Source: Bacillota bacterium | GTDB lineage: Bacteria; Bacillota; Clostridia; Ch29 | Assembly (NCBI GenBank): GCA_028686075.1 | Contig: JAQUCT010000009.1 | Location: 1-52,782, forward strand | Direction: 5' to 3' | DNA: 52,782 nt | Shown: positions 1-7,478 of the stretch, one piece after another | Numbering within the stretch: position 1 is the stretch's first letter | Layout: every line of letters starts with the position of its first letter | Made by a program: the position numbers and the translations under genes | The notes under the pieces: model-generated | What the model was told of the DNA's origin: nothing | The model's database searches: none | What the model saw: the letters and a program-made list of their open reading frames with translations, nothing else

Positions 1-15
1 CATGAACGTTAGGCG
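1..15 (+). other. 3' end of an attC-like site (boundary of first cassette)
   Basis: The window opens inside an attC-like site. GTTAGGC at 8-14 fits the R' consensus GTTRRRY exactly. The sequence after it (8-25) is the near-complement of 919-937 at the other end of the same cassette, with one insertion and one mismatch. The 5' part of the site lies outside the window. Confidence 0.55.
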
Positions 16-41
16 ATATAGTGCTTATTGGAGGCAATATA

Positions 42-920
42 ATGTCAGTATCAATATTTAATAGTTATGAAGGTGAGAAAAAACTTCTTAAACTCTATGA
101 TCAGGCTTTAATTGGACTCGGGTTGGAATATGAAGAAAATTATGTCAAGACCCGTTATGGTAAGACTCATATTTTAACTACTGGACCCGAGAAAGCTCCA
201 CCAGTTGTACTTTTGCAGGGAGGCAATACTGTTAGTCCAATAACGCTATCTTGGTTTCTTCCATTAACAAAACAATTTCGGGTTTATGCACCAGATACTA
301 TTGGACATCCAGGAAAAAGTGAACAGGTTAGAATTTCACCATCAGATGATAGCTTTGGAAAATGGACAATTGATATTCTGGATGGGTTGGGTTTGTCTGA
401 GGCTATATTCATTGGACCTTCATATGGTGCTGGGATTATATTAAGAACAGCATCGTTCGCACCAGAAAGAATAAAAAAGGCTGTGTTATATGTACCTTCA
501 GGTATTGCTTCGGGGTCGATAGCACAAATGGTACGCAAAGTAGTTCTGCCTATGCTGATGTACAAGATGTATCCAAGTGAAGAAAGATTAATTAAAGCAG
601 TAAGACCGATGTTTACTGGGGAAATTGATGAAATCACTAAGCAAGTTACCGGGGCGGTTTTTCGGTATGTTAAGCTTGAAACAAACATGCCCCGATTAGC
701 TAAGAAAGAGGAATTGATTAAGTTTAAATCTCCTACAATTGTTATAGCTGGAGATAAGGATATTTTTTTTCCTGCACAAAGAGTCATTCCGCGTGCAAAA
801 GATATTATTACTAATCTTGTAGGCGCAGAATCAATTCCGGATTTAGGGCATTTACCTTCAAAGGATAATTTAAACTACATAAATGACCTAATTATAAGAT
901 TTATCAAAAAAGAGAAATAG
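42..920 (+). CDS. alpha/beta hydrolase fold protein
   Basis: A 292-residue cytoplasmic protein of the alpha/beta hydrolase superfamily; substrate unknown. The nucleophile elbow is GPSYGAG (Ser about residue 127 from this start), the acid is in AGDKD (about 240) and the histidine in LGHLP (about 270), so a Ser-Asp-His triad is intact. The oxyanion region LQGGN lies near residue 59. I chose ATG 42 because GGAGG at 30-34 sits 7 nt upstream; a GTG at 21 in the same frame has no ribosome binding site. The gene fills the first cassette and is followed 10 nt after its stop by an attC-like R'' arm. It is AT-richer than the genes beyond 7.4 kb, consistent with acquisition as a cassette. Confidence 0.85.
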   Translation: MSVSIFNSYEGEKKLLKLYDQALIGLGLEYEENYVKTRYGKTHILTTGPEKAPPVVLLQGGNTVSPITLSWFLPLTKQFRVYAPDTIGHPGKSEQVRISPSDDSFGKWTIDILDGLGLSEAIFIGPSYGAGIILRTASFAPERIKKAVLYVPSGIASGSIAQMVRKVVLPMLMYKMYPSEERLIKAVRPMFTGEIDEITKQVTGAVFRYVKLETNMPRLAKKEELIKFKSPTIVIAGDKDIFFPAQRVIPRAKDIITNLVGAESIPDLGHLPSKDNLNYINDLIIRFIKKEK

Positions 921-929
921 CACTACGAT

Positions 930-1068
930 CGGCTAACAGCAAGGGTTTACGCAAGGGGTTCGGCCATAAAGAATGTGAGAATGAAAGCAATGACCTCACC
1001 CACATCACCAAGCCCAAGTCGAAGTGTCACTAGGGCTTGGCGACGTCGCAGATGCCTGACGTTATGTG
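930..1068 (+). other. attC-like recombination site 1
   Basis: R'' CGGCTAAC (930-937), a terminal hairpin CCAAGCCC/GGGCTTGG (1008-1015 with 1033-1040), then GACGTCGCAGATGCCTGAC and the R' core GTTATGTG (1061-1068). The 3' half aligns along its length with the sites ending at 3169, 4329, 5218 and 6470. Total length, about 138 bp, is at the long end of known attC sites, similar to Vibrio repeats. Confidence 0.65.
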
Positions 1069-1126
1069 AAATCGGCTAAAAAGGAGCAGAAGGTATGAAA
1101 CTTAAGTTCTAGTGAAATAATTATTG

Positions 1127-1155
1127 TTGAAGTAAAGGGAAAATTTAGATAGAAT
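1127..1155 (+). promoter_or_regulatory. promoter of HEPN/MNT pair 1
   Basis: TTGAAG (1127-1132) and TAGAAT (1150-1155) are separated by 17 nt, about 30 nt upstream of the HEPN start. It lies inside the cassette, so the toxin-antitoxin pair does not depend on an array promoter. Confidence 0.55.
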
Positions 1156-1185
1156 ATAAGGTAGAAATTGAAAAGGACATTAGAG

Positions 1186-1587
1186 ATGAATAAAGATCAG
1201 AAATTCCTGTATTGGTTGGATATAGCGGAATATGATCTAAAAACTGCCGAAGCTATGCTAACTTCTGGTAGATTTGTGTATGTTGTTTTCATGTGTCAAC
1301 AGTCTTTAGAGAAGCTTGCCAAAGGATTGTATAATTATTACATTGATGATAATGTCCCGCGCGTACATAATATTAGTTTTATTATAAATAGGTTAGTTGA
1401 AAAACTAAACATTGAAGTAGAAGAACAATGCTATTATTTATTCGATAAATTAGCTGCATATTATTTACAGGGCAGATATCCTTCATTTAAAGAAAAAATA
1501 TCAGAATTGGTCAGTGGGGACGAAGCAAGAAAAATCTTCGAAAAGACTAAGGAGGTTTTTGAATGGATGAAATCTCTGAAAGAATAA
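1186..1587 (+). CDS. HEPN domain protein, probable toxin of a HEPN/MNT pair
   Basis: A 133-residue all-helical HEPN domain protein (COG1895 type). Helix 1 holds WLDIAEYDLKTAEAML, followed by CQQSLEKLAKGL, an RVHNI segment (R59, H61) and the C-terminal GRYPS motif (R97) typical of this family. The classical RX4HXY ribonuclease motif of HepT is not evident, so RNase activity should not be assumed. The start is ATG 1186, with AAGG at 1173-1176; the frame also opens at TTG 1168. It overlaps the downstream nucleotidyltransferase by 25 nt, the usual translational coupling of HEPN/MNT pairs, in which the MNT partner modifies and neutralises the HEPN protein. It is clearly homologous to the protein at 3394-3786 in the next cassette. 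Confidence 0.8.
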   Translation: MNKDQKFLYWLDIAEYDLKTAEAMLTSGRFVYVVFMCQQSLEKLAKGLYNYYIDDNVPRVHNISFIINRLVEKLNIEVEEQCYYLFDKLAAYYLQGRYPSFKEKISELVSGDEARKIFEKTKEVFEWMKSLKE

Positions 1588-1889
1588 ATAGTGTAGTTAA
1601 AGACTATATTCGCGATGTACAAAAGCATTTTCCGATAAACAGAGCGGTTTTATATGGATCTTATGCTAAAGGTACCAATAATGAATATAGTGATGTAGAT
1701 GTGGCCATTTTCTCCGACAGCTTTAAAGATAAGAATAGGATCGAAGTAAATACATTTTTGTTTTCATTAGCGCGGAAATATAAAGACATTTGTATTGAGC
1801 CAATTGGGTTTGACAGTTCGGATTTAGAAGAAAACAACCCGTTTATTAAAGAAATAATAGATACAGGGAAAGAAATTTACGTTCAGTAG
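1563..1889 (+). CDS. MNT-type nucleotidyltransferase, probable antitoxin
   Basis: A 108-residue minimal nucleotidyltransferase (COG1708-like). The signature GSYAKG (residues 32-37) is followed by SDVDVAIF, giving the metal-binding pair D44 and D46. Characterised MNT antitoxins transfer AMP from ATP to a tyrosine of their HEPN partner; that role is inferred here from pairing and motif. The ORF overlaps the HEPN gene by 25 nt and ends 34 nt before an attC-like R'' arm. No helix-turn-helix is present, so autoregulation by this protein is not expected from sequence. Confidence 0.8.
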   Translation: MDEISERINSVVKDYIRDVQKHFPINRAVLYGSYAKGTNNEYSDVDVAIFSDSFKDKNRIEVNTFLFSLARKYKDICIEPIGFDSSDLEENNPFIKEIIDTGKEIYVQ

Positions 1890-1916
1890 ATTTCTCTTTT
1901 TTTATTGTGTGGTAGG

Positions 1917-1945
1917 CCGACATCACATAACAAATTAGAGATTTA
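1917..1945 (+). other. 5' arm of an interrupted attC-like site (site 2)
   Basis: CACATAAC at 1924-1931 is the exact reverse complement of the cassette's first bases (1061-1068), and the match extends to 13 of 15 (1917-1931 against 1061-1075). It is followed by AACAAATTAGAG, also present after the R'' at 5899. The rest of the site is separated from it by IS91-type sequence. Confidence 0.6.
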
Positions 1946-2021
1946 TGATGTTCTCGAACAAAAATAAAGAAAACCCCTTAATGAGTATAGGACCGGAGTT
2001 TTCGATTAGTTCTATCCCGAG

Positions 2022-2541
2022 TTACGGCACAGCATACGCATCACTTAATAGACCGAAAAACACCATAATACCGCCGCATAAAGGGCAGGCGAGATAATGC
2101 TTAACAACCTTGGGCATGGCAGGTCTTAAACCGGCAAGCTTAATACAAAGGGCAAGTTTTGTAGATATATTCCGGCTTGAAAAAATTCCATAGTGCCGGA
2201 TCTTAGTAAAGCCCGATGGAAGTACATGGAGAAGGAACCTTGTAGTCCTTCCATTTAAATGACACAGTGTTTCCATCAAAGCCAACTATTCTGCGGTTAC
2301 TGATGGCAACCCTATGGGTATATCGTCCCAGGTATTTGACCACGTGACCGGGTGACTTAAAAGGTTTCTTACAGTAGACAACCCAGGGCCTATGGTATAA
2401 ACTGTTAATTAAATCAAGGAAGTTAAGACCATATGAAAGCTCTTTAGCATCATTGAAAAGTTTAATATCACCACGCTTCCATGCTTCTTTTAAGTGAAAC
2501 AAGAATTTACCTTTAAACTTATTTGAGATTAAGCACCTCAC
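2022..2541 (-). pseudogene. IS91-family transposase, C-terminal remnant
   Basis: Two overlapping minus-strand frames encode consecutive parts of an IS91-type rolling-circle transposase. The first has CKKPFKSPGHVVKYLGRYTHRVAISN and ends in SFKWKDYK; the second continues FLLHVLPSGFTKIRHYGIF and a CPLCGG zinc knuckle. In intact transposases about 20 residues (the segment leading to EEFIRRF) lie between them, so a short out-of-frame deletion has removed that segment. The N-terminal half is absent. A 191-bp part (2072-2262) recurs almost identically at 6016-6206. Not functional. Confidence 0.8.
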
Positions 2542-2941
2542 TTATACGAAGACCGGCTGAATAGGCGGTAAGAAGCACGGTTTTGTGCTTAAGGTTTGGT
2601 ATATGCTCCATGATAGATAGAATTTCTTCCTTGGATAGTACATAGGGTAGTTTCTTTGGCTTCTTTGGCTGCACAATGACATCATCGGACCACCCTCGGC
2701 CAAGGACCGAGTTGAACATGACCTTGAAGGCATTGCAGGAGATATTAATATTACTGTAACTGATACCCTTTTTAATCCGGTAGTGAAGATACTGCTTTAT
2801 CTCATCAGGTGAGATGTGAATTGGGGGCTTGCCGGAATGTTTCTCTAGCAATCTAACGTGATTTAGGTAATGCCTTTGCGTGTTTTGGGAATAGCCGCGA
2901 AGCTCCATCTCGAACTTCATTGCTTCATAAGGGTTTTGCAT
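2519..2941 (-). pseudogene. truncated tyrosine recombinase (IS91-associated integrase-like ORF)
   Basis: About 140 residues match the N-terminal SAM-like DNA-binding domain (residues 5-85, GYSQNTQRHYLNHVRLLEKH) and the start of the catalytic domain of tyrosine recombinases, up to the first catalytic arginine in AGLRISEVLNLK. The frame then stops at the junction with transposase sequence; the remaining catalytic residues (second Arg, His, Tyr) are absent, so it cannot recombine DNA. Its position immediately upstream of IS91 transposase sequence fits the accessory recombinase of certain IS91-like elements better than an integron integrase, and the additional IntI-specific domain cannot be present in what remains. 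Confidence 0.7.
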
Positions 2942-3025
2942 AAGGTATACATCCTTTCCTGATTATTAAATACAGGAAGATGACACCACAAAGGAGGGTA
3001 ACACGAGCTACCGCGTAGCGGTTTA

Positions 3026-3169
3026 GTACAACAAAGCATGCCCGTAAAGGTGCGGCGGGGGCGGGTTTGGAGTATGCGCGCCACACCGTTTCACCGGGTG
3101 CAAGCACCGCCAGGAAGAATGGCTTTGTGGGTCCGGCTCAGGGGCGTCGCGAGTGCAGGACGTTCTCCG
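3026..3169 (+). other. attC-like recombination site 3
   Basis: GTACAACAAAGCATGC (from 3026) as R''/L'' arm, GC-rich centre, then CGCGAGTGC (3148-3156), a 5-nt AGGAC spacer and the R' core GTTCTCCG (3162-3169). The 5' arm AACAAAGCA is shared with site 4 at 4192. Short ORFs across this stretch are a by-product of its GC-rich hairpins. It is the probable 3' boundary of the cassette containing HEPN/MNT pair 1 and the IS91 remnant. Confidence 0.6.
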
Positions 3170-3348
3170 AAACCACACGCGTTGGACGCGGCGTCCTGCC
3201 GCGAATTATGCAAGCATATGATTTGAGTGTTTATTGGTTCATAGTAGTAGAATTATTAGTGGCAACGGAAATGTATGCTCCATCAGGCGAGTAATCACTG
3301 AGCTATTCTTTTAACCTGTGTGGTACTCTTCTATTTAAATGAAGTACA

Positions 3349-3357
3349 TGGTACAAT
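3349..3357 (+). promoter_or_regulatory. extended -10 promoter of HEPN/MNT pair 2
   Basis: TGGTACAAT (3349-3357) is an extended -10 element 37 nt upstream of the HEPN start. There is no good -35, which extended -10 promoters can dispense with. Confidence 0.4.
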
Positions 3358-3393
3358 ATAAGATAGAGTTTACATATAAAGGGAAGTGATATA

Positions 3394-3786
3394 ATGGATA
3401 AACAAGAAAGACATAAATACTGGCTTGAATTAGCTGAATATGATTTGGAAACGGCTAAGGTCATACTAACAGGAGAGCGATATTTGTATGTTGGTTTTAT
3501 GTGCCATCAAGTTATAGAAAAGGCCCTAAAAGGGTATTATGCTTGTATATCTGAAGATAATCCGCCTTATATTCATAACCTTACAATACTATCAAAGAAA
3601 TCAGGTGTATATCAGCTTTTTACTGAAGAGCAGAAGGATATTATTGATTCACTTGAGCCCCTTAATATTCAAGCAAGGTATCCAACCGTTAAGGATAAAC
3701 TTTTGAAGTCGTTGACAAAGGAAAAGTGTAAAAGAATAATTGATGAAACGGAGGTTTTATTTCAATGGATAAAAGCCAGGCTTTAG
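3394..3786 (+). CDS. HEPN domain protein, probable toxin (second pair)
   Basis: A 130-residue HEPN protein homologous to the one at 1186-1587: YWLELAEYDLETAK in helix 1, CHQVIEKALKGYY, IHNLTIL (H61) and the family motif ARYP (residues 94-97). As in the first copy the RX4HXY motif is not obvious. GGGAAGTGAT precedes the ATG. It overlaps the nucleotidyltransferase gene by 22 nt. The pair occupies its own cassette between attC-like sites 3 and 4. The sequence is too diverged from the first pair to be a recent duplication. Confidence 0.8.
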   Translation: MDKQERHKYWLELAEYDLETAKVILTGERYLYVGFMCHQVIEKALKGYYACISEDNPPYIHNLTILSKKSGVYQLFTEEQKDIIDSLEPLNIQARYPTVKDKLLKSLTKEKCKRIIDETEVLFQWIKARL

Positions 3787-4073
3787 AAAAGGCCATGCAA
3801 TATGCAGCATTAGTAAGTGAGAAGATAAAACCTCAAAAGATTGTTTTATATGGTTCTTACGCAAAAGGAAATTGGAAGGAAGAAAGCGATATAGATATTG
3901 CTATAGTTGTTGATGCAATTGGTGAGGACTTTTTAGATACAGAAACATTGTTATATAAATTGAGAAGGAATATAGATGACAGAATAGAACCGATCCTTTT
4001 GGAATGCAAAAAAGATGAAAGTGGTTTTTTAGATGAGATATTGAAACATGGGCAAGTTATTTATAGTGTATAA
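3765..4073 (+). CDS. MNT-type nucleotidyltransferase, probable antitoxin (second pair)
   Basis: A 102-residue minimal nucleotidyltransferase with GSYAKG (residues 30-35) and SDIDIAIV carrying the metal-binding D42 and D44. By family it should AMPylate and silence the overlapping HEPN protein. The ORF ends about 110 nt before attC-like site 4. A short stem-loop (GCTGGAAGTT ... AACTTTCAGC, about 4077-4100) followed by TTTTTAT right after the stop could end transcription. Confidence 0.8.
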   Translation: MDKSQALEKAMQYAALVSEKIKPQKIVLYGSYAKGNWKEESDIDIAIVVDAIGEDFLDTETLLYKLRRNIDDRIEPILLECKKDESGFLDEILKHGQVIYSV

Positions 4074-4075
4074 AA

Positions 4076-4108
4076 TGCTGGAAGTTTAATAACTTTCAGC
4101 ATTTTTAT
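4076..4108 (+). terminator. probable intrinsic terminator after HEPN/MNT pair 2
   Basis: The inverted repeat TGCTGGAAGTT / AACTTTCAGCA is followed directly by TTTTTAT, starting 3 nt after the stop codon at 4073. Confidence 0.6.
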
Positions 4109-4175
4109 ATAGTATAGCAGGAATTAAAAAGATTAATCTAGTGGTGCGACGTCCTGTCGCACTCTGAGTTAAGGG

Positions 4176-4329
4176 ACGTGTGGCTTCGGAGAACAAAGCA
4201 CTTGCACAAGGGGTACAGCAGGGGGAAAGGCTCTGGCGCAAGGTCATGAAGTTATCCTGCCCACATCCACCAGCTTAAGATAGGAGTTATCTAAGGCTGG
4301 CGGACGTCGCGAGTGCCAGACGTTATACG
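4176..4329 (+). other. attC-like recombination site 4
   Basis: The clearest site. R'' CGGAGAAC (4187-4194) is followed by AAAGCACTTGC as L''. A terminal stem-loop CCAGC/GGCTGG with paired AAGATA/TATCT flanks lies at 4270-4300. L' GCGAGTGC (4309-4316) pairs with GCACTTGC. A 5-nt CAGAC spacer leads to R' GTTATACG (4322-4329). R'' is the exact complement of the first 8 nt of its own cassette at 3162, and the match extends to 17 of 19 nt (4176-4194 against 3162-3180). A separate hairpin GTGCGAC/GTCGCAC lies just upstream at 4143-4161. Confidence 0.7.
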
Positions 4330-4363
4330 CCATGCGAAAGCAGGGGTGGAAAACAGAAAGAAA

Positions 4364-4774
4364 TCAGGGTCTTTCCCTTATGCCCAATCGTTCCTTCAAA
4401 GCGGATTGGAGTACCTGAGAAAAATTAACGTTTTTCTCTATTGCGAGCTTGTTCAGCCATTGAGGGATAGAAAGTGTTTTCTTTATAGAGTAGTTTTCAA
4501 TGGCCTCCCGCATTGTAGGCATATATACTTCAATTAGTACAACGGCTTGGTTGGAATCAAGGTGTATATTGTTTATAGGGGTTGGTTCAGGAATTTCATC
4601 GTTATCTTCTTCCAGGCTATAAAGGTGAAGACCGAGTGCATCATTGGCCATTTTGACTGCCTCTTGGTCTGAGTTTGCACAGGAAAAACATCCAGGCAAA
4701 TCAGGAAAGGAAATGGAAATCCCATCATTAGAATATTCGAAAACTGCGGGGTAAATATAATGGTCCTTTTTCAA
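4364..4774 (-). CDS. hicB: HicB-family antitoxin
   Basis: A 136-residue HicB-type protein. The N-terminal degraded-RNase-H-like half has the family pattern YPAVFEYSNDGISISFPDLPGC (about 8-29). The C-terminal part, KTLSIPQWLNKLAIEKNVNFSQVLQSAL, is a DNA-binding ribbon-helix-helix or HTH segment able to repress the operon. The start is TTG 4774 with AAGGAAG about 10 nt upstream; no ATG is available. The gene follows hicA with 33 nt between and runs opposite to the other cassette genes, toward attC-like site 4. HicB neutralises the HicA mRNA interferase by direct binding. Confidence 0.85.
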   Translation of the reverse strand: MKKDHYIYPAVFEYSNDGISISFPDLPGCFSCANSDQEAVKMANDALGLHLYSLEEDNDEIPEPTPINNIHLDSNQAVVLIEVYMPTMREAIENYSIKKTLSIPQWLNKLAIEKNVNFSQVLQSALKERLGIRERP

Positions 4775-4807
4775 TTTGAATACACTTCCTTTAACTGTTA
4801 AATGATT

Positions 4808-5008
4808 TTAGTCCGTGGGTTTAACATCTGCCTGCTTCATGACATTTTTGACGGTTTTGTAGGGAATGTCTTTTCTCGGGTGGGGGATGGTAACTTTGTC
4901 TTTTTTAGTAGGCTGCTTAAAATGGTGATGGCTGCCCGAGGCTTTATAGAAGTACCAACCATCATCATTTAGAATCTTAATCAACTCTGTTGATGAGTAT
5001 GACTTCAT
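4808..5008 (-). CDS. hicA: HicA-family mRNA interferase toxin
   Basis: A 66-residue HicA toxin, a small dsRNA-binding-fold ribonuclease that cleaves mRNA in the absence of HicB. It shows the family core LNDDGWYFYKASGSHHHF with the catalytic histidine in the GSHHHF motif, then VTIPHPRKDIPYKTVKNVMKQA. The start ATG 5008 is preceded by GAGGG about 9 nt upstream; the longer frame to 5110 has no ribosome binding site and would cross the promoter. It is first in the two-gene hicA-hicB operon, transcribed from the promoter at 5031-5059. Confidence 0.85.
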   Translation of the reverse strand: MKSYSSTELIKILNDDGWYFYKASGSHHHFKQPTKKDKVTIPHPRKDIPYKTVKNVMKQADVKPTD

Positions 5009-5030
5009 AGATAATATCCCTCTTAAGGTT

Positions 5031-5059
5031 ATTATAATACGTAGGAAACTACGTGTCAA
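5031..5059 (-). promoter_or_regulatory. hicAB promoter with palindromic operator in the spacer
   Basis: On the minus strand TTGACA (5059-5054), a 17-nt spacer and TATAAT (5036-5031) form a perfect consensus sigma-A promoter. The spacer carries the inverted repeat ACGTAG-N4-CTACGT (5039-5054), a strong candidate operator for HicB autorepression. Confidence 0.8.
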
Positions 5060-5082
5060 AGAGATTTTGAAAGAAGCACGTC

Positions 5083-5218
5083 GCAGAACAACGAGTTGCA
5101 GATTATGCACCGGTTAGAGATTAATCTCGGTAATTCCGGAGCTTCAACCCAAATCCGTCCGCCTAACATAAGAGCTATGTAAGGCAGCCGGACTTCTGCA
5201 ACTTGCAGGAGTTATCTG
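5083..5218 (+). other. attC-like recombination site 5
   Basis: R'' GCAGAAC (5083-5089) and L'' GAGTTGCAG (5093-5101). The central hairpin GTCCGCCTAACATA / TATGTAAGGCAGCCGGAC lies at about 5157-5193. L' CTGCAACTTGC (from 5196) pairs exactly with the L'' arm over 8 bp, and R' GTTATCTG is at 5211-5218. Here R'' is a poor match to its own cassette's start at 4322, unlike the other sites. The cassette it closes is the one with inverted hicAB. No gene lies in 5009-5333. Confidence 0.65.
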
Positions 5219-5292
5219 AAATATAGCACACGAAGTTGCCCGTCCTCGTGACGGGCAAACAAAGCGTTAGTGTGGTTGAGTTTATAGCCCTA

Positions 5293-5301
5293 TGGTATAA
5301 T
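5293..5301 (+). promoter_or_regulatory. extended -10 promoter of the ParD/ParE-like pair
   Basis: TGGTATAAT (5293-5301) is an extended -10 with a consensus TATAAT, 33 nt before the antitoxin start. A TTGAGT at 5276-5281 is too close (14 nt) to be a normal -35. Confidence 0.55.
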
Positions 5302-5333
5302 AAAGGAAAGCGCAATCAAGGGGGTGTTGATAA

Positions 5334-5510
5334 ATGAGTACTTTAAAAGATGAAGCCAGAAGAATAATTGAAGATTTGCCCGAAAATGCGACCTGGGATG
5401 ATTTAATGTACCAATTATATGTTAAAAAAAGAGTTGAGACCGGAATTAAAGAAATCGAAAATGGAGAGACACTTCCCCATGAAGAAGTAAAGAAGAGATT
5501 ATTAACATGA
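5334..5510 (+). CDS. small antitoxin of a ParE/RelE-type pair
   Basis: A 58-residue acidic protein beginning MSTLKDEARRIIEDLPENA, followed by TWDDLMYQLYVKKRVETGI and a C-terminal tail ending in KKRLLT. It has the size and layout of short antitoxins that precede RelE/ParE toxins (N-terminal dimerising segment, helix WDDLMYQLYVKKRVE, then a toxin-wrapping tail). AAGGGGGTG stands about 9 nt before ATG 5334. Its stop overlaps the start of the next gene (ATGA at 5507-5510), so the two are translationally coupled. Family assignment rests on position and pattern. Confidence 0.75.
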   Translation: MSTLKDEARRIIEDLPENATWDDLMYQLYVKKRVETGIKEIENGETLPHEEVKKRLLT

Positions 5511-5815
5511 AAATTATCTGGACTAAATCTGCTGTCTTAAATTTGGAGAGTATTAAAAGCTATATTGCTCAGGATTCACAGTATTATTCAGTAGAATTGA
5601 CAGAGAAAATTTTTGGTGCCGTAGAAAAGCTTAGCGGTTTTCCGAGATTGGGCAGGGAAGTTCCGGAAATAAAGAAAGAAAATATTCGTGAAATTATTTA
5701 TGGAAATTACCGTATTCTTTATAGAATTGACACCGAAGTCCTTTATATTATTGCCATCATTCATGCTACACGAGATTTTAACCAAGTAAAGTTAAACCAA
5801 TGGGAAATTTTCTAG
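5507..5815 (+). CDS. ParE/RelE-superfamily toxin
   Basis: A 102-residue plasmid stabilisation-type protein. The start MKIIWTKSAVLNLESIKSYI is the hallmark of ParE/RelE toxins, followed by the core FPRLGREVPEI, IREIIYGNYRILYRI and the C-terminal IIHATRDF. Members either poison gyrase (ParE) or cleave mRNA at the ribosome (RelE); the sequence does not decide between them. It overlaps the antitoxin stop by 4 nt and lies in its own cassette between attC-like sites 5 and 6. Confidence 0.85.
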   Translation: MKIIWTKSAVLNLESIKSYIAQDSQYYSVELTEKIFGAVEKLSGFPRLGREVPEIKKENIREIIYGNYRILYRIDTEVLYIIAIIHATRDFNQVKLNQWEIF

Positions 5816-5845
5816 CCACTAAAACTTATTCAATATAAATAGAAG

Positions 5846-5869
5846 TGAAAGTGCGACCATCCTTGGTCG
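5846..5869 (+). terminator. stem-loop after the ParE-like toxin
   Basis: GCGACC-ATCCTT-GGTCGC followed by TTCAAATT, about 35 nt after the toxin stop. The T-run is short, so it may instead be a transcript-stabilising hairpin. Confidence 0.4.
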
Positions 5870-5886
5870 CTTCAAATTAGGGCCGA

Positions 5887-5920
5887 TGTGCCATACTTCA
5901 GATAACAAATTAGAGTTGTA
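5887..5920 (+). other. 5' arm of interrupted attC-like site 6
   Basis: CAGATAAC (5899-5906) is the exact complement of the cassette start GTTATCTG at 5211. The match extends to 18 of 20 nt (5887-5906 against 5211-5230). AACAAATTAGAG follows, as in the arm at 1924. The other half of the site is found near 6400-6470, after insertion-sequence remnants. Confidence 0.6.
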
Positions 5921-6015
5921 CTGAACCGTCTGCCACACAGAAGCTCTTTATGGGGAATCAATCTTCGCCCTAACCATACAAACCGCCAAATGACAGTGTA
6001 TAAGAATAGTAGTAT

Positions 6016-6206
6016 CGCCGCATAAAGGGCAGGCGAGATAATGCTTAACAACCTTGGGTATGGCAGGTCTTAAACTGGCAAGCTTAATACAAAGGGCAAG
6101 TTTTGTAGATATATTCCGGCTTGAGAAAATTCCATAGTGCCGGATCTTAGTAAAGCCCGACGGAAGTACATGGAGAAGGAACCTTGTAGTCCTTCCATTT
6201 AAATGA
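6016..6206 (-). mobile_element. second fragment of the IS91-type element (191-bp direct repeat)
   Basis: Positions 6016-6206 repeat 2072-2262 with about four mismatches. On the minus strand they encode the same transposase C-terminal segment (FLLHVLPSGFTKIRHYGIF to CPLCG). The repeat includes the out-of-frame deletion junction of the first copy, so both derive from one already deleted element. Flanking sequence beyond CPLCG differs between the copies. Confidence 0.85.
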
Positions 6207-6209
6207 TAC

Positions 6210-6348
6210 ATAGCAAAAACTATTACCGAACTGAATAATCGCTGTGCTTTATTGGAGCAGCAAAACGTTGAATTAATGGTTAAATTAAGATGGTATGAAG
6301 AACAATTCCACCGTAATGCCGGCTTCAAAAGTAATTTTTCTCAACAGT
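6210..6348 (+). pseudogene. IS66-type transposase N-terminal remnant
   Basis: The plus-strand frame reads ITELNNRCALLEQQNVELM followed by KLRWYEEQFHRN. This resembles the coiled-coil N-terminus of IS66-family TnpC transposases (leucine-zipper-like segment followed by KLRWYEEQF). It abuts the IS91 repeat at 6206 directly and has no start codon or remainder. Assignment is by short motif only. Confidence 0.5.
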
Positions 6349-6379
6349 GCCGTGCGACCAATGCAAGGGTGCTGATGGT

Positions 6380-6470
6380 GAGTCTCTGAGGAAAGGTAGC
6401 ACCACACCTGCGAGCATAAGATAAGAGCTATCCAAGGCTCTCGGTGTCGTGAACCCGCATACGTTATCAG
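6380..6470 (+). other. 3' half of attC-like site 6
   Basis: The hairpin GAGC-ATAAGATA / TATCC-AAGGCTC (6411-6440), the segment TCGTGAACCCGCATAC and the R' core GTTATCAG (6463-6470) align position by position with the 3' halves of sites 1, 4 and 5. Because its L' does not pair with the arm at 5906-5920, the two halves may come from different original sites, joined by insertion-sequence activity. Confidence 0.55.
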
Positions 6471-6618
6471 ACAGGCTGAGGAGGCGTTATGGGTTTTTAA
6501 GGAAAATATTTGAATATTAGTGATTGATAAAGATATTTAATGATATAATTAAGCTAGAAAATTACATTATAAGCTCAATCTTTCTAAGAAACAACAAGAA
6601 CGTTGGCACAAAAAGTGT

Positions 6619-6747
6619 ATGTGTTTGATGGAGTTTCAAAATGTAAAAGAAATAGAACTGATTGACTTCAATCGCCAGGGCAATATGGATGATAGCAGTA
6701 ACCGTGGCATCGTGAGCGGATTTAAAAAGGAGGCACCCGGTCTATGA
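6619..6747 (+). CDS. possible small ORF coupled to the MoaE-like gene
   Basis: An open frame of about 42 codons from ATG 6619 (upstream it is open to about 6560 without a start) contains LMEFQNVKEIELIDFNRQG and ends in GFKKEAPGL. Its stop codon overlaps the start of the following gene (ATGA at 6744-6747). There is no clear ribosome binding site and I recognise no family. It could be a remnant of a longer gene or a leader peptide. Confidence 0.25.
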   Translation: MCLMEFQNVKEIELIDFNRQGNMDDSSNRGIVSGFKKEAPGL

Positions 6748-7154
6748 CTAATGGAAAAATGAAAAAACTACCACCATCAATCGACGAATGGCTAAAAGAA
6801 GCAAAGTCTGATTCGGCGGCCTTACAGGAAGGGATGTTTTTGGTTCATAACGGAATCGTACGCCAAACGCCCAAAGCCAAAGTGCGCCAGGGAATCGATG
6901 ACGGTTCGACGGTAAAGGGGATGGAATTTGCCTATGATACAGCAAAGGTTGATGCGGCTATTAGCGAAACCTATAAGATGGACGGTATATTCCATGTCAG
7001 GGCTTGGCTTAATGAAGGCCACCTAGAACTTGGCGACGATATAATGTATGTACTGATAGGCGGCGATATAAGGTCTCATGTTGTAGATGCCTTACAATTC
7101 TTGGTTGAAAGTATAAAAAGCGAATGTGTTACCGAGGTCGAACAAAAATATTAA
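6744..7154 (+). CDS. MoaE-like protein
   Basis: A 136-residue protein resembling the large subunit of molybdopterin synthase (MoaE fold). The pattern is GMFLVHNGIVR (about 30-40) in place of the MoaE GAvvxFxGxVR strand, KGMEFAYD, RAWLNEGHLELGDDIMYVLI (about 86-105) and a C-terminal IKSECVTEVEQ. The C-terminal segment lacks the PxWKKE motif with the catalytic lysine of true MoaE, and no MoaD is nearby, so it may be a divergent paralogue rather than a working molybdopterin synthase subunit. GGAGG (6729-6733) precedes ATG 6744. It lies beyond attC-like site 6 and may be the last cassette. Confidence 0.65.
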   Translation: MTNGKMKKLPPSIDEWLKEAKSDSAALQEGMFLVHNGIVRQTPKAKVRQGIDDGSTVKGMEFAYDTAKVDAAISETYKMDGIFHVRAWLNEGHLELGDDIMYVLIGGDIRSHVVDALQFLVESIKSECVTEVEQKY

Positions 7155-7186
7155 TAAACCAATAAGTAAATAGCGAGCATATACCT

Positions 7187-7323
7187 GCCGATAACTACCC
7201 TGTAAGAATAATGAAGAAGTGCTATAAGAAGCGGTACTATCTACAGGCGAAGGCAGATGGGGAAAGCCGGTATCGCCGATGCCGGTTTTTTTTATGGTAA
7301 ACTTGTATTCGGAGAGTTATGTA
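7187..7323 (+). other. possible degenerate attC-like site 7 and downstream intergenic region
   Basis: GCCGATAAC (7187-7195) partly matches the complement of the preceding cassette start at 6463 (CCTG-C-GATAAC). A GTTATGTA core lies at 7316. Between them are paired CCTGTA/TACAGG arms and a terminator. The evidence is weaker than for sites 1 and 3-5. From here to 7478 I see no gene. Confidence 0.3.
7265..7293 (+). terminator. intrinsic terminator after the MoaE-like gene
   Basis: CCGGTATC-GCC-GATGCCGG (7267-7285, one T-G pair) is followed by eight T residues (7286-7293). Confidence 0.8.
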
Positions 7324-7478
7324 AGGCAATTGCATTAGCAGAAGAGGATACGATGGCGGATAGGCGGGACAATAACGATTATTTGCGCGGCAGTCGCCTG
7401 CGGAGACGGTGAGACGGAGATGAAAGTATGACAGTGGCGGTTAGTTATCGGATAAATAAAAAGGTAGGAGGCGGGAGA

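Follow-up and report, generated by a model that had tools for sequence, protein, structure and literature searches.

The window (the whole stretch of DNA analysed, 52.8 kb; positions 1-52782 of contig C7, genome G000) carries an array of small gene units at positions 1-7323 (Table 1), comprising one hydrolase, two HEPN-MNT pairs, HicAB, a ParE pair and a MoaE-like gene. Because the window begins at the contig start, the array is truncated there at position 1, its upstream part being missing from the assembly. The sequence-only reading had placed the DNA in a Clostridia host, and this was borne out, the genome being assigned to the same class as Clostridium sp. CF012. Two IS91-like transposase remnants were found in the array interior (2022-2941 and 6010-6210, the latter 97% identical to 2066-2266), and the attC sites starting at 1929 and at 5904 are broken. 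An intact copy of the type broken at 1929 is located on contig C86 of the same genome, with CATCATGAATCTC as its L'. The tyrosine recombinase fragment within the first remnant was rejected as an integrase candidate, as it adjoins the Y2 transposase and forms part of the IS91-like remnant. PADLOC returned weak matches only, mostly between the two MNT proteins and candidate defence families.

Table 1 Features of the putative cassette array and the candidate integrase gene (window positions unless another contig is named)
Feature	Position	Strand	Content and evidence
Tail of preceding junction	1..7	+	CATGAAC before GTT; contig edge
Cassette 0	8..1061	+	Alpha/beta hydrolase ORF 21-920 (PF00561); R'' GATCGGCTAAC ends 937; complementarity 12.5 (8/937)
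attC-type site A	930..1068	+	R3 77.2 bits, E 5.6e-17 at 933-1068
Cassette 1	1061..1931	+	HEPN 1168-1587 (PF05168), MNT nucleotidyltransferase 1563-1889 (PF18765); R'' ends 1931; complementarity 12.5 (1061/1931)
Broken attC half, then IS91-like remnant	1929..3029	.	attC half AACAAATTAGAGATTTATGATG
Y2 transposase fragments	2022-2541	-	PF04986; within IS91-like remnant 1 (2022-2941)
Tyrosine recombinase, N-terminal half	2519-2941	-	PF13495; within IS91-like remnant 1
attC-type site B2	3025..3169	+	R3 45.6 bits, E 1.9e-9
Cassette 2	3162..4322	+	Second HEPN 3394-3786, MNT 3765-4073; R'' ends 4194; complementarity 16 (3162/4194)
attC-type site C	4187..4329	+	R3 80.5 bits, E 9.4e-18
Cassette 3	4322..5211	-	HicB 4364-4774, HicA 4808-5110 (PF15919, PF07927); reversed in array
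attC-type site D	5082..5218	+	R3 47.3 bits, E 7.4e-10
Cassette 4	5211..5906	+	Small antitoxin-like ORF 5334-5510, ParE toxin 5507-5815 (PF05016); R'' ends ~5906; complementarity 16 (5211/5906)
Deleted attC, cassette start, second IS91-like remnant	5905..6463	.	Cassette start GTTGTACTGAACCG (5915)
attC-type site E2	6346..6470	+	R3 56.6 bits, E 4.5e-12 at 6355-6470
Last cassette	6463..7323	+	MoaE-like ORF 6744-7154 (PF02391); weak complementarity 8.5
Degenerate end of last cassette			R''-like GCCGATAAC to 7195, GTTATGTA at 7316; distal end of array
Tyrosine recombinase gene	contig C5, 116-1228	-	Likely array integrase

The sites ending at 1068, 3169, 4329, 5218 and 6470 had been read as homologous attC-type sites, and we confirmed this homology with a covariance model (R3) trained on 24 sites, all from genomes other than G000. 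Across the whole 52.8 kb window, R3 matched all five on the plus strand (E-values from 1.9e-9 to 9.4e-18) and gave no further match up to E = 10. The inner hairpins were strong, and stem pairing was kept between the sites (80% of cells paired, compared to 32-39% when slid). Site B2 shared 94% identity over 123 bp with a site that lies downstream of a recombinase on contig C33 of genome G005. The proposed check with an attC model gave a divided result: R3, derived from other Bacillota arrays, matched all five sites, whereas a home-made class 1-type model (R2, built from 14 class 1-type sites) matched neither the window sites nor the Bacteroidota arrays; R2 does detect class 1 sites and VCRs. 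The window sites were covered by no Rfam family. A generic R''/R' scan without a cassette-length test was too noisy and was dropped.

That the array is of integron type had been proposed because the R'' at each cassette end is complementary to the start of that same cassette. This was the case for four cassettes, all of which scored higher than each of 400 control GTT positions taken from the rest of the window (highest control score 11), but the HicAB cassette (4322) and the final one (6463) showed weak complementarity. The complementarity and the R3 matches support the claim of an integron-type cassette array. Comparison between genomes showed traces of cassette exchange. Related Paenibacillus overall have the flank, integrase and attI in common at 90-97% identity; in L093 and L116, with 94% identity in the upstream flank and 97% in integrase and attI, the cassettes right after attI were not alignable and the break fell at GTT. 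One cassette was common to G001 and G260, which belong to different families, with both breaks at GTT, and a cassette on contig C86 was 97% identical to a cassette of G005, which represents another genus.

Integrons are usually defined by IntI and its special domain, for which survey software searches, and they are regarded as nearly absent from Bacillota. The sequence-only reading had proposed a genome-wide search for intI; no canonical IntI was found in G000 by profile search. With the curated IntI model TIGR02249 (cut-off 265 bits), no IntI exceeded the cut-off in any of 391 Clostridia genomes, and no canonical IntI was detected in 25 genomes with an array-head recombinase, while the same search, applied as positive control to 198 genomes from another phylum, detected IntI in 66. 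The likely integrase instead belongs to a sister lineage of IntI. It is a tyrosine recombinase encoded on contig C5, which scored 230 bits against TIGR02249 and narrowly passed the NCBI model NF040815 ('site-specific tyrosine recombinase/integron integrase'; 222 vs 220 bits). The genome also encodes XerD (C24) and another Xer (C13), both of which were ordinary and were rejected as array integrase. The catalytic R-K-H-R-H-Y residues are kept in the recombinase family, a C-terminal SPLD motif is common to the family and IntI, and the closest fold match was VchIntIA (2a3v). The segment from GKGxKDR to HxLRH spans 58-63 aa in 74 family members compared to 100 aa in 14 IntI, and the IntI-specific additional domain (a ~40-residue insertion) is absent from all 74. 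In the tree, every member fell outside the fully supported IntI clade, and the family together with IntI was split from Xer by a branch with support 98; the unity of the family was weakly supported in this quick tree (73), and IntI might be nested within it. Family members are also carried by some archaeal MAGs (L099, L102, L104 and L112).

Because the recombinase and the arrays of G000 lie on separate contigs of an incomplete assembly (93.5% complete), their linkage rests on relatives and on contig C10. Family genes are located directly upstream of arrays and on the same strand in G005 (C33), G155 (C9), G277 (C1), G318 (C1) and G380 (C349); G005 belongs to the same taxonomic family as G000, and its sites reach 94% identity with those of the window. 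Around 80 family genes, 104 cassette-type complementary pairs were counted in 347.6 kb downstream vs 5 in 497.3 kb upstream, a roughly 30-fold higher density (minus-strand counts are no control because the pair test is symmetric). Many of these loci had few or no detectable cassettes, partly through contig ends. Overall, the recombinase was present in about 15 of 23 Clostridia genomes with sites and in about 8 of 368 without (Fisher P about 5e-16, with counts matched by hand); 8 of the 23 site-bearing genomes had no recombinase at the cut-off, possibly through fragmentation or decay. In 42 of 67 loci, an attI-like junction, consisting of tandem imperfect palindromes followed by 10-12 bp and G^TT, was found no more than 900 nt away, in most cases 64-130 nt past the recombinase stop. 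In G000, the copy of attI on contig C10 is joined to a first cassette, and the edge of contig C5 falls at the G of G^TT. By position and comparison, the junction is a predicted attI adjoining the integrase gene, with insertion at G^TT. The integrase was co-directional with the cassettes in the linked cases rather than divergent as in canonical integrons. We therefore put at about 0.85 the joint probability that the array-head family is a sister group of IntI without the IntI-specific domain and that positions 1-7323 are the distal end of an integron-like array with the C5 recombinase, a member of this family, as its likely integrase.

An alternative explanation is that the array is an ordinary CALIN, with cassettes made and inserted by a canonical IntI that has since been lost or that came from other bacteria, and that the neighbouring recombinase is an unrelated Xer or phage-type enzyme. 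Five sites and no IntI do correspond to the definition of a CALIN (at least two attC, no IntI nearby), the start of the array is missing from the assembly, and integrase-less CALIN are common, with a few reported in Firmicutes (PMC9024848). Yet an IntI-sister recombinase heads such arrays across phyla, with the directional enrichment described above and an attI-like site after its stop, and canonical IntI was absent from the Clostridia and the recombinase-bearing genomes that were searched, so that we consider this explanation improbable. The recombinase could also be a genuine IntI whose IntI-specific domain disappeared secondarily in some lineages, which would make the arrays ordinary integrons with a reduced integrase. 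The nearest solved structure and profile, the common SPLD motif and the weakly supported unity of the family agree with such a loss, but 74 of 74 members lack the segment and lie outside the IntI clade, and they are intact and head diverse arrays, making secondary loss unlikely. Finally, the strong inner hairpins and the lack of a class 1-type match might suggest terminators or other intergenic repeats instead of recombination sites; this is hardly credible, as it is contradicted by the complementarity of cassette starts and ends and by exchange breaks precisely at GTT in other genomes, and as the sites come after a recombinase and an attI-like site.

The integron-like array headed by an IntI-sister recombinase resembles known integrons (IntI/attI/attC, including sedentary chromosomal ones) in its one- or two-gene cassettes, R''-L''-L'-R' attC with GTT core, attI beside the integrase, cassette turnover at attI and richness in toxin-antitoxin pairs. 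It differs in its integrase, which has no IntI-specific domain and falls short of the IntI cut-off, and in its attC, which in Bacillota are often 120-150 nt long, have perfect L stems and asymmetric spacers (3-4/6-7 nt) and are unmatched by the class 1-type model. Similar to the linked cases described here, the atypical integrons of Treponema (T. denticola), an accepted exception to the divergent arrangement, have an integrase transcribed toward attI in the cassette direction (PMC3607928), but that gene is described as intI while our recombinase lies outside the IntI clade. Archaeal integrons (Ghaly et al. 2022, PMC9668308) likewise occur outside the usual phyla with attI downstream of the integrase gene, but their IntI contains the IntI-specific domain, which the present family lacks although it is found in some archaeal MAGs. 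The core tyrosine recombinase fold and the narrow NF040815 pass are shared with XerA/Xer, from which the recombinase differs by grouping with IntI and heading cassette arrays. The earlier statement that integrons are essentially not described in Firmicutes was nearly right, but the IntegronFinder 2.0 survey lists a single complete integron there (Limnochorda pilosa), along with a few CALIN (PMC9024848). We found no literature describing an integron-like system with a recombinase of this kind in Clostridia, Paenibacillus or Bacteroidota, in a search that covered few subscription papers and no preprints, and an earlier description is possible.

In the proposed mechanism, the recombinase gene points toward an attI-like site ~100 bp past its stop codon, and cassettes in circular form, each bearing a hairpin attC (R'', 3-4 nt, L'' ... 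L', 6-7 nt, R'), would be inserted at the attI GTT and excised or reshuffled at the attC GTT cores. The attC is probably used as a folded single strand, as in integrons, and the recombination would be performed by a C5-type recombinase, with polarity presumably set by the spacer asymmetry and not by an extrahelical base held by the IntI domain; an N-terminal HARP-like domain may help to bind the hairpin. The array stores toxin-antitoxin pairs and small accessory genes. Judged from sequence, the best reading is a second, apparently unrecognised integron lineage. It is probable that this lineage is widespread among both Bacillota and Bacteroidota and also occurs in other bacteria and in some archaeal MAGs, that it is run by the domain-less sister family of IntI and that its hairpin attC are recombined by a different recognition geometry, and it may retain the condition that preceded the evolution of IntI. 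If the sister recombinase heads arrays in these phyla, a large reservoir of mobile cassettes, containing toxin-antitoxin and other accessory genes, would have been overlooked or recorded as unlinked attC clusters, and the origin of integrons would become testable, namely whether recombination at hairpin sites predates the IntI-specific domain.

Two covariance models were used to assess the integron-type cassette array that the sequence-only reading had proposed for window positions 1-7323. The R1 model, built from the window sites and one site of contig C86 of the source genome, was run on 391 genomes of that genome's class and detected homologous sites in at least 23 of them, often with several on one contig (8 candidates scored per genome). 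R3 was built from the sites found by R1 and from other genomes, source-genome sequence being excluded entirely; its matches in the window were exactly the five sites already proposed, with none besides up to E = 10, and it also matched sites on contigs C86 and C10 of the source genome and in Paenibacillus arrays. Pairing was kept in 80% of the paired cells of the sites, compared to 32-39% when slid. Many sites across genera had the conserved inner hairpin CTAAGATARGAGCTATCTAAG in common. Of 73 sites in which the L stem was clear, nearly all had a longer spacer on the 3' side than on the 5' side (most commonly 7 vs 4, 6 vs 3 and 5 vs 2-3). A separate model trained on 14 class 1-type attC sites recovered its training-type sites and VCRs but matched neither the window nor Bacteroidota arrays, suggesting that standard tools may overlook part of such arrays.

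Complementarity was scored between the first 20 bases of each unit, counted from GTT, and its cassette-end motif R''. The proposed match of R'' with its own cassette start held for four window cassettes (12.5, 12.5, 16 and 16; top score 11 among 400 control GTT positions elsewhere in the window), but not for HicAB and the last cassette. The assembly (1.95 Mb, 95 contigs, 93.5% complete) places window position 1 at a contig edge, since the window covers bases 1-52,782 of contig C7. Positions 1-7400 were annotated by direct sequence reading and Pfam. The two IS91-like Y2 transposase remnants are 97% identical, and each adjoins a broken attC of AACAAATTAGAG type; attC sites may be the target of an IS91-like element carrying its own tyrosine recombinase. 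The cassette start GTTGTACTGAACCG at 5915 is complementary to the R'' at 3032, pointing to a single cassette type present as two broken copies.

Features of the window and of related source-genome loci (window positions are on contig C7)
Feature	Contig	Position	Strand	Remark
Ends of attC-type sites	C7	1068, 3169, 4329, 5218, 6470
Array element 1	C7			hydrolase
Array element 2	C7			HEPN-MNT
Array element 3	C7			IS91-like remnant with half tyrosine recombinase
Array element 4	C7			HEPN-MNT
Array element 5	C7			HicAB, reversed
Array element 6	C7			ParE pair
Array element 7	C7			second IS91-like remnant
Array element 8	C7			MoaE-like gene
Y2 remnants	C7	2066-2266; 6010-6210
Cassette start GTTGTACTGAACCG	C7	5915
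Complementary R''	C7	3032
Host genes	C7	from 7428		after MoaE-like gene
Large host ORF	C7	26391-35048		2885 aa
Molybdenum/tungsten cofactor riboswitch	C7	46707-46828		RF01055, 64.5 bits
Recombinase of array-head family	C5	116-1228	-	relative of G318 protein; faces contig end
attI-type site	C10	about 1966-1993		joined to cassette
attI-array locus	C10	1-1990 (L078)
RelB/ParE-type cassette	C86	16879-17932 (L027)

In the single-contig genome G318, a tyrosine recombinase gene points into an array that starts directly after it, extends over 30 kb and holds more than 15 sites, each on the same strand. Relatives of this recombinase occupy the same place in G005, G155, G277 and G380; in G005, of the same family as the source genome, the adjacent sites are 85-94% identical to the window sites. 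A named-genome scan returned 80 recombinase loci, spanning Halonatronum, Clostridium, Desulfosporosinus, Fusibacter, Paenibacillus and many Bacteroidota, as well as MAGs of other phyla, archaea among them. Cassette-type start/end pairs numbered 104 in the 347.6 kb downstream of these 80 genes, compared to 5 in the 497.3 kb upstream. Within Clostridia, the gene was found in roughly 15 of 23 site-positive and 8 of 368 site-negative genomes, counts that are approximate because size and position were used to match genomes across two separate searches. Family members were also seen in archaeal MAGs (L099, L102, L104 and L112; Micrarchaeota, Undinarchaeales, Altarchaeum). Extra, shorter paralogues lie within or near arrays in G329 (L063, L067) and Clostridium sp. 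CF012 (G392), the latter with four members. The host was placed in class Clostridia, as hits in the class of Clostridium sp. CF012 lie at contig positions identical to those of hits in the source-genome class (G005, G155, G277, G318, G329).

A first cassette start was detected within 900 bases past the recombinase stop codon in 42 of 67 loci, mostly at 64-130, and an imperfect palindrome (e.g., ATACGAAC..TTCGT) lies 10-12 bases 5' of the attI GTT. An attI-like junction was also observed 3' of the recombinase gene of the archaeal locus L099. Contig C10 carries a second attI-array locus of the source genome, lacking a recombinase, in which GCGACATGATGTCGGTAATTACATA^GTT is followed by a cassette whose R'' matches its own start (score 13); a transposase remnant, IS256/Mutator-like by eye, lies on the other side of attI, and a DinB-type polymerase gene also flanks the locus. 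C5, which carries the recombinase, breaks off at the G of the attI GTT, as would be expected if the next cassette differs within the population.

Traces of exchange were found at several loci. Paenibacillus loci L093 and L116 are 94% identical upstream and 97% across integrase and attI, and unrelated right after the attI GTT; L093 and L097 show the same pattern. Genomes of different families (G001 and G260) have a cassette in common (93% over 1,051 bp, 98% over 916 bp) with GTT at both ends. The RelB/ParE-type cassette on C86, with a repeated AATGTACAACTAGC..TATACTATT element on both sides, matches a cassette of G005, of a different genus, at 97% identity over 1,056 bp, although the recombinases of the two genomes are just 55% identical.

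A canonical IntI was sought with a curated model, which nothing passed in the source genome, its order or 391 Clostridia genomes; in the same search IntI1 scored 505 bits and, in another phylum, 66 of 198 genomes had an IntI above the cut-off. Catalytic residues of the array-head family are conserved. The distance from GKGxKDR to HxLRH is 58-63 residues in 74/74 members, compared to 100 in 14/14 IntI (64-65 in Xer), indicating that the IntI-specific segment is absent; this domain is retained in archaeal IntI, and its profile is partly what IntegronFinder uses to identify IntI (PMC9668308). A quick maximum-likelihood tree split the family and IntI from Xer (support 98), with IntI a single clade (100) and the family a single group with weak support (73). 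The top profile and fold match was VchIntIA (2a3v), followed by XerA, the fold comparison using the structure that AlphaFold predicts for the Clostridium sp. CF012 member (mean pLDDT 89.7). Several members have an N-terminal domain whose match to HARP stays below the threshold (best 19 bits, cut-off 25), and we would guess that this HARP-like domain holds hairpins.

IntegronFinder 2.0 reported one complete integron and a few CALIN in Firmicutes (PMC9024848), and our literature search, without preprints and most subscription papers, returned none linking this recombinase family to arrays. Treponema integrons are co-directional (PMC3607928), as are these arrays. Judged from its sequences, the system would work as an integron does; by the tests made here it falls outside the IntI-defined family, since its integrase lacks the domain that defines that family. 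We call it a candidate system, putatively a lineage of integrons that uses an IntI-sister integrase.
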